This document shows positions 15,093 through 16,093 of a stretch of 64,000 nt of DNA, piece after piece. Each line of letters opens with the position of its first letter. The stretch's first letter is position 1. Below the pieces are notes generated by a model that saw only the letters and a program-made list of their open reading frames with translations, ran no database searches and was not told the DNA's origin. Source of the DNA: Ignavibacteria bacterium (GTDB lineage: Bacteria > Bacteroidota > Ignavibacteria > Ignavibacteriales > Ignavibacteriaceae); the NCBI GenBank assembly GCA_021286645.1, contig JAJTBZ010000071.1, positions 1 to 64,000 on the forward strand, given 5' to 3'. Position numbers and translations under genes: made by a program.

Positions 15093-15341
15093 ATGAAATC
15101 ATTAAGCGCACGGATTGATAATCCGCTTTCTGAATTAATAAGCGACGAAATTTACGAATTGTTAACTGAGCATGGTTTAATCGATGACAAGGCTGTCCGC
15201 GATTACCAGATCAGGAAAAAATTTAAGATGATGCGGGCGACTAAAGTTAGCGCTGGCGATGCAATTGATGCGATACGTGAAGAATATCCGTATCTGCAAT
15301 TTGATACTATCAGAAAGATAGTTTACCAAATAGCGAAGTAA
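15093..15341 (+). CDS. Small hypothetical protein, 82 residues
   Basis: Family not recognised. The protein is soluble, charged and predicted mainly helical: LSELISDEIYELLTEHGLIDDKAVRDYQIRKKF, then AGDAIDAIREEYPYLQFDTIRKIVYQ. The pattern of short helices with basic residues could suit a DNA- or RNA-binding or adaptor protein, but that is speculation. AAAGGA lies about 10 bases before the ATG, supporting translation. It stands alone: it is preceded by a long intergenic region and followed by the promoter of a probable small RNA. Confidence 0.7.
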   Translation: MKSLSARIDNPLSELISDEIYELLTEHGLIDDKAVRDYQIRKKFKMMRATKVSAGDAIDAIREEYPYLQFDTIRKIVYQIAK

Positions 15342-15359: not shown

Positions 15360-15391
15360 CTTGACTTATTTTGGAATTTTTCGTAATATTG
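15360..15391 (+). promoter_or_regulatory. Strong promoter for the small RNA / DUF3098 region
   Basis: CTTG (15360-15363), 20 bp, TAATATTG (15384-15391) fits the Bacteroidota promoter. The same stretch also reads as TTGACT-N17-TAATAT, close to the classical sigma-70 consensus. Predicted start near 15397. Confidence 0.55.
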
Positions 15392-15396
15392 TAATG

Positions 15397-15474
15397 CCTC
15401 GTTCGCAGGTTTCTCCCCTGACCTGTGAACTATAAACAGCGGCCCAGTGTCCCCCCCAGCACTGGGCTTTTTTT
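15397..15474 (+). ncRNA. Probable small RNA with two C-rich hairpin loops (or a terminated leader of the DUF3098 gene)
   Basis: The stretch has its own promoter, no ORF, and ends in an intrinsic terminator, giving a transcript of about 78 nt. Hairpin I: GTTCGCAGGT (15401-15410) pairs with ACCTGTGAAC (15421-15430), 10 bp including one G-U, with loop TTCTCCCCTG. An 11-nt linker follows. Hairpin II: GCCCAGTG (15442-15449) pairs with CACTGGGC (15460-15467), loop TCCCCCCCAG, then a T-run. Both loops expose UCCCC-type runs that could pair with G-rich Shine-Dalgarno sequences, as known for C-rich-loop sRNAs of Firmicutes. An attenuator or riboswitch-like leader for the gene at 15506 is the alternative. 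Confidence 0.5.
15442..15474 (+). terminator. Intrinsic terminator of the small RNA
   Basis: 8-bp G/C-rich stem (15442-15449 with 15460-15467) followed directly by seven T (15468-15474). Confidence 0.75.
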
Positions 15475-15505: not shown

Positions 15506-15784
15506 ATGGCAAAAACATTGAAAAAAACTTCTGCTGCCAAAACAGTAAAAGGAGAATCATTTCTTTCGCCATTTCATATTTATTGGGAACGTAATAACTA
15601 TATATTATTGGTTGCCGGATTAATATTAACACTTATCGGTTTTGCCTTTTTATCGGTTAAGCCCTGGGATAGCACAGCTTCGCTGGTGATTGCCCCGATA
15701 ATTTTAGTTTTTTCATTCGTGGTTGTGTTCCCGATAGCAATATTCTATCGCCCGAAATCGAAAAAACAAACGACAGAAAACTAA
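15506..15784 (+). CDS. DUF3098 family small membrane protein
   Basis: The 92-residue protein has a basic, Lys/Ala/Thr-rich N-terminus and two membrane segments (about residues 34-54, LLVAGLILTLIGFAFLS, and 65-85, LVIAPIILVFSFVVVFPIAI) around a short loop, the layout of DUF3098. I chose the ATG at 15506, preceded by AAAGGA; the frame is open further upstream but would run through the terminator hairpin. In many Bacteroidota DUF3098 sits beside ftsX, yet here ftsX is about 39 kb away. Its function is unknown; a cell-envelope role is inferred from that association. Confidence 0.75.
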   Translation: MAKTLKKTSAAKTVKGESFLSPFHIYWERNNYILLVAGLILTLIGFAFLSVKPWDSTASLVIAPIILVFSFVVVFPIAIFYRPKSKKQTTEN

Positions 15785-15817: not shown

Positions 15818-16093
15818 ATGTTACTTGCCAAAGTACGCGGTAATGTAGTAGCTACCCAAAAACACGATCAATTAGTAGGACATAAACTTCTTTTGATTCG
15901 TCAGGTAGATTTAGAGGAAAACTATATCGGTAAGAATGATATAGTTGCAATTGATCTTATAGGGTCGGGTATAGGCGATACAGTATTGGTTACTCAGGAA
16001 GGGGATGCTGTACAGCAGATTCTGGGTCATAAGAACGCCCCGGTTCATACAATTATCGTTGCAATTGTCGATAAGGTGAGTGTTAATATTTAA
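15818..16093 (+). CDS. EutN/CcmL family bacterial microcompartment vertex protein (BMC-P)
   Basis: 91 residues, the full length of the family. MLLAKVRGNVVATQKHDQLVGHKLLLIRQVD is the typical N-terminal strand of EutN/CcmL (PF03319), followed by AIDLIGSGIGDTVLVTQEGDA and a C-terminal IIVAIVDKV strand. BMC-P proteins form pentamers that cap the vertices of protein-shelled organelles. No hexameric BMC-H or BMC-T shell gene and no signature cargo operon is in the window, so the gene stands alone between DUF3098 and dprA. Either it caps a shell encoded elsewhere or it has been recruited to another job. AGAAGG precedes the ATG. Confidence 0.85.
   Translation: MLLAKVRGNVVATQKHDQLVGHKLLLIRQVDLEENYIGKNDIVAIDLIGSGIGDTVLVTQEGDAVQQILGHKNAPVHTIIVAIVDKVSVNI

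Follow-up and report, generated by a model that had tools for sequence, protein, structure and literature searches.

In the analysed window, i.e. the complete stretch of 64,000 nt of the Ignavibacteria bacterium contig JAJTBZ010000071.1, a short non-coding element with its own promoter and terminator lies between a gene for an 82-aa protein and a gene for a 92-aa DUF3098-like membrane protein (Table 1). The 82-aa protein ends in YLQFDTIRKIVYQ and yielded no match in Pfam or NCBIfam; throughout the order it is highly conserved in its position beside the element, and in other families the left-hand neighbour is often an ABC-transporter ATPase. The DUF3098-like protein of the window scores below the PF11297 cut-off (18.4 bits), whereas relatives of it pass (27.6 and 25.0 bits). 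Between the DUF3098 gene and dprA, a lone gene for a EutN/CcmL-type microcompartment vertex protein is located (15818-16093), and no further shell gene was recognised among the searched neighbours.

Table 1. Position and supporting evidence of the features at the small RNA locus (numbering of the window).
Feature	Position	Strand	Basis
82-aa upstream protein	15093-15341	+	Usual left-hand neighbour within the order (44 of 91 elements)
-35 box TTGACT	15361-15366	+	Consensus and position kept in relatives
-10 box TAATAT	15384-15389	+	Consensus and position kept in relatives
Small RNA, ~79 nt	15396-15474	+	Fold z-score and covariance-model match (15393-15473, 89.9 bits)
Outer helix, 5' strand GCCUC	15396-15400 (partner ~15436-15440)	+	Helix 1 of the family alignments
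Hairpin 1, 11 bp	15401-15430 (15401-15411 with 15420-15430)	+	Fold; compensatory changes
Loop 1 UCUCCCCU, proposed antisense seed	15412-15419	+	Conservation of 1.73 bits/position versus 0.82-0.87 in the stem
Hairpin 2, 10 bp, and T run (intrinsic terminator)	15441-15474 (15441-15450 with 15459-15468, then T run)	+	Fold; 99% of family cells paired
Loop 2 CCCCCCCA	15451-15458	+	Predicted fold
Linked gene, 92-aa DUF3098-like membrane protein	15506-15784	+	Linked in 58 of 91 elements

The existence and the structure of the small RNA are well supported. For the fold of positions 15397 to 15474, an MFE of -35.1 kcal/mol (z = -7.43) was calculated, and none of 200 shuffled sequences reached an equally low energy. 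The initial annotation had proposed a self-contained transcript of about 78 nt with promoter and terminator, and such an RNA is predicted here with a length of about 79 nt. The layout of hairpins and loops described at that time was retained as well, with the corrections that hairpin 1 comprises 11 instead of 10 bp and that the predicted loops measure 8 instead of 10 nt. Hairpin 1 is separated from the terminator hairpin by a linker of 10 nt, and loop 1 is open in the predicted ensemble. A third, outer helix, formed by the 5' end and the segment before the terminator, is strong in most relatives and weak in this genome; 72.5% of its cells are paired in an alignment of 28 sequences and 87.8% in the wider alignment described below.

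The promoter, previously placed at 15360-15391, is of the sigma-70 type with a 17-nt spacer between the boxes and 9 of 12 consensus matches. Such a match alone is at chance level in this region (18 sites versus 13.9 expected), and it is the conservation of position and consensus in the relatives that corroborates the earlier assignment. At least 9 of 12 matches were found in 88% of the gene-linked and 66% of the free-standing copies, compared to 18% of the shuffled sequences, and 32 of the 58 gene-linked copies contain a perfect TTGACA/TATATT match. The end of the -10 box is most often located 6 nt before the first helix. Because both the promoter consensus and the -10 spacing are conserved, the transcript most likely begins at the first helix, that is at 15396, around 7 nt past the -10 box, instead of at 15397 as originally noted.

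Conserved copies of the element were found by BLAST in a search of 58 relatives. With a covariance model built from 28 copies, the RNA was detected in 116 of the 164 genomes analysed for the order and in 97 of the 294 analysed for the class; a single genome carries as many as 8 copies. The curated set comprises 91 members. Among the matching records that carry a name, nearly all are MAGs labelled Ignavibacteria, Ignavibacteriales, Ignavibacteriaceae or Bacteroidetes. Four weak matches outside the class, obtained with a sample of the phylum, were recognised as generic terminators on inspection and excluded.

In the alignment of the 28 sequences, covariation reached 0.514, compared to 0.223 after shuffling, and slid controls did not exceed 0.133; changes on both sides were observed in 17 of 26 pairs. 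The wider alignment, which consists of 98 rows fitted to the model and includes a few false matches, yielded 0.629 versus 0.231 for shuffled data and double-sided changes in 26 of 26 pairs; in hairpin 1, all 11 pairs have double-sided compensatory changes. The check for covariation in relatives suggested in the initial annotation was thereby carried out with a positive result. Loops that vary freely had been named there as a sign against the proposal, but loop 1 shows hardly any variation, its CCCC being present in close to 100% of 81 members, and it is the stem beneath it that varies freely. The family displays a C-rich loop that is single-stranded and conserved, carried by a stem that covaries. 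For loop 2, a conservation of 1.24 bits/position was determined versus 1.30 in its own stem. That the locus is a common terminator preceded by a chance hairpin, for which the resemblance of the weak model matches outside the class to generic terminators could be cited, can be practically dismissed; it is refuted by the covariation, by the invariance of the loop, and by a promoter and a synteny that are conserved throughout the class.

In the Rfam scan that had been proposed, nothing in the window reached a gathering score, and no riboswitch was matched. The Chlorobi-1 RNA, which is composed of two stem-loops and a terminator, stems from a neighbouring phylum. The initial annotation had asked for it to be included in the scan, and no match was found at gathering level or at E-values up to 10. 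Membership in alpha-r14 (RF02344) was rejected with 29.6 bits in the window and 28-35 bits in relatives (gathering threshold 58.8), and membership in anti-hemB (RF02837) with 24.0 bits in the window and at most 32.9 bits in relatives (gathering threshold 49.5). The alpha-r14 RNAs have three hairpins, each with CCUCCUCCC (PMC10746234), while two hairpins with UCUCCCCU and CCCCCCCA are present here. These matches below the threshold reflect a shared shape. Regarding small RNAs in Ignavibacterium or Ignavibacteria, nothing relevant was found in Rfam or in open-access papers (subscription papers were not covered), in agreement with the earlier remark that no similar RNA was known from this lineage. 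The RNA family therefore appears to be new to the catalogues.

Its kind, the antisense RNAs with C-rich loops, is already known. The multicopy LhrC RNAs of Listeria monocytogenes carry UCCC/CUCCC motifs both in the loop of a hairpin and in that of the terminator, and their CUCCC loops pair with GGGAG upstream of the start codon, with target binding taking place without Hfq (PMC4132741). The Ignavibacteria RNA resembles them in being multicopy and in its C-rich hairpin and terminator loops, but belongs to an unrelated lineage and is not recognised by the Rfam models; LhrC, for its part, possesses three CU-rich sites and is not known to be linked to DUF3098. In the Hfq-independent NfeR1/alpha-r14 RNAs the stems differ, whereas the anti-Shine-Dalgarno loops are ultraconserved (PMC10746234). 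A conserved loop over differing stems is shared by the Ignavibacteria RNA, for which alpha-r14 is the best Rfam match below the threshold, although alpha-r14 has three hairpins and about 123 nt and occurs in Alphaproteobacteria. Similarly, anti-hemB has the two-hairpin layout and a C-rich loop, and several family members match it below the threshold (24-33 bits), but it is a Burkholderia RNA. RsaE/RoxS and FsrA are sRNAs of Firmicutes with UCCC loops, whose C-rich motif blocks ribosome-binding sites (PMC4132741); their architecture is different, and no homology was detected by the Rfam scan. The likeness to the C-rich-loop sRNAs of Firmicutes pointed out in the initial annotation was accordingly upheld, the loops being C-rich in the manner of LhrC or alpha-r14.

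The analysis of ribosome-binding sites covered about 463 kb of sequence from this genome and used simple ORF calls. Among the k-mers enriched upstream of start codons, GGAG ranked 1st of 256, GGAGA 2nd of 1,024 and GGAGAA 3rd of 4,096, and all three are complementary to loop 1. The predicted pairing of loop 1 was best at positions -20 to -1, where 23 of 349 starts reached -9 kcal/mol or better, compared to 4-7 starts in the windows just upstream. However, UCUCC is present in 10% of the shuffled loop 1 sequences, and some permuted loops likewise pair better near starts. The Shine-Dalgarno match is suggestive only, because some shuffled or permuted loops behave in the same way, and an anti-Shine-Dalgarno function of loop 1 is regarded as plausible. 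Both loops had been proposed to address Shine-Dalgarno sequences. Of the two, only loop 1 with its GGAG/GGAGA complement fits the preferred Shine-Dalgarno of this genome; the proposal was not supported for loop 2, the complements of which are not enriched at the ribosome sites of the same 463 kb and the poly-C of which has been lost in several free-standing copies of one genome.

GGGGA-type sites, assumed earlier as targets, gained no support either: GGGGAG, which is complementary to the invariant CUCCCC, occurs at the ribosome site of 1 of 349 ORFs and is not enriched, and long complements are almost never located at real starts. For the full loop complement with at most one mismatch, 211 sites were counted in this genome versus 78 for the reversed pattern; few of 30 sites examined are at a possible start, and the exact complements are mostly not at starts. 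A search for CAGGGGAG..ATG across the family resulted in a convincing gene start at 1 of 30 inspected sites and in no specific target. Counts of GGGGAG..ATG mostly exceeded those of reversed controls, irrespective of whether a genome has loop 1, and neither these counts nor CAGGGGAG..ATG on the family without loop 1 provided a clear target signature. Since no Hfq above the cut-off was found in 41 genomes, an Hfq-independent mode of action is expected.

In 58 of the 91 curated copies, which come from several families of the class, the element is followed by a DUF3098 gene at a distance of 16-55 nt, and the gap is shorter than 36 nt in 53 of these 58. The linkage to the gene at 15506, initially taken as incidental, is thus class-wide. 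As the 53 gaps are too short for a second promoter, the DUF3098 gene probably depends on terminator read-through for its transcripts, and the RNA would double as the terminated leader of this gene. The remaining 33 copies are free-standing, tandem arrays among them, and usually have no gene nearby downstream, while loop 1 and the promoter are conserved. Invariable read-through into the gene at 15506 had been considered as evidence against a discrete RNA; the free-standing copies cannot be mere leaders. With its conserved promoter and terminator and its free-standing and tandem copies, the element qualifies, as judged from sequence, as an independent transcription unit.

Some copies are arranged in tandem, each with its own promoter and terminator; at one locus (L036:996-1723), three promoter-RNA-terminator units follow each other at intervals of about 315 bp, and the intervals contain no gene. 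One genome (G004) contains eight copies (L235-L242), and in several of its free-standing ones the terminator loop is degenerate and loop 1 is kept, which suggests that loop 2 is dispensable. In family f2 of the order (L017-L020, L022-L026), the C-rich loop 1 is replaced, and the poly-C-loop terminator and the DUF3098 gene are kept; this is a natural loss experiment.

The main rival to the anti-Shine-Dalgarno reading is a role mainly in cis, in which an attenuator regulates termination, and thereby transcription of the DUF3098 gene, and the terminated RNA is a by-product. It agrees with the position of the linked copies and the lack of room for a second promoter, with the retention of gene and terminator without loop 1 in f2, and with a T run that is slightly weaker in gene-linked than in free-standing copies (7.4 versus 7.8 of 9, p = 0.003). 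In addition, where loop 1 is C-rich, GGAG precedes the start of the linked gene in 20 of 48 cases, versus 1 of 10 where it is not, these being small numbers. As the principal function, such a role is nevertheless considered unlikely, because 33 of the 91 copies are free-standing, some of them in tandem, and these keep loop 1 and the promoter and usually have no gene nearby downstream. Furthermore, no leader peptide or ligand-like core was recognised, and no competing antiterminator helix was seen in the predicted fold or in the sequence inspected by eye.

Less probable still, and rather remote, is a protein-binding RNA whose C-rich loops titrate an RNA-binding protein and do not serve as antisense seeds. 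Loop invariance and multiple copies would fit this equally well, no recognisable Hfq is present in the lineage, and the Bacteroides RNA-binding protein RbpB, which reportedly works with small RNAs such as FopS, was also counted in its favour. On the other hand, antisense seeds, too, are typically C-rich loops that are single-stranded and sit on a variable stem, and loop 1 fits the Shine-Dalgarno sequence used locally.

The reading preferred here, with reasonable though far from full confidence, is that of a trans-acting antisense small RNA, representing a new class-wide family, in which loop 1 blocks ribosome-binding sites without Hfq. The RNA would start at its own promoter and end at its own terminator, and two helices, or three in most relatives, would present loop 1 in an unpaired state. 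Loop 1 may then pair with purine-rich ribosome-binding sites with the core GGAG/GGAGA, and more strongly with GGGGAG, whereby translation would be blocked with no need for Hfq. By analogy, we infer an Hfq-independent antisense RNA like LhrC of Listeria or the rhizobial NfeR1. Some polymerases might pass the terminator, leading to expression of the DUF3098 gene, and one promoter would therefore yield both a small RNA and an mRNA. More tentatively, and with somewhat less than even expectation, the element could be bifunctional, giving rise from one promoter either to a terminated anti-Shine-Dalgarno RNA or to a read-through DUF3098 mRNA, with the leader having been copied repeatedly into free-standing, tandem, Hfq-independent trans regulators. 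If so, a cis leader would have become a paralogous family of trans-acting RNAs.

With its multiple copies and its nearly invariant loop, the RNA offers an entry point to post-transcriptional control in Ignavibacteria, and the linkage to DUF3098 a genetic handle on a protein of unknown function. Beside Listeria, Staphylococcus and rhizobia, the family adds another, apparently unrelated, case of C-rich loops and bears on the question of whether such loops arise repeatedly. A further weak model match of 32 bits was observed on a Rhodospirillaceae contig (L122:7351-7429), which could represent an RNA of the alpha-r14 type and an instance of convergence.
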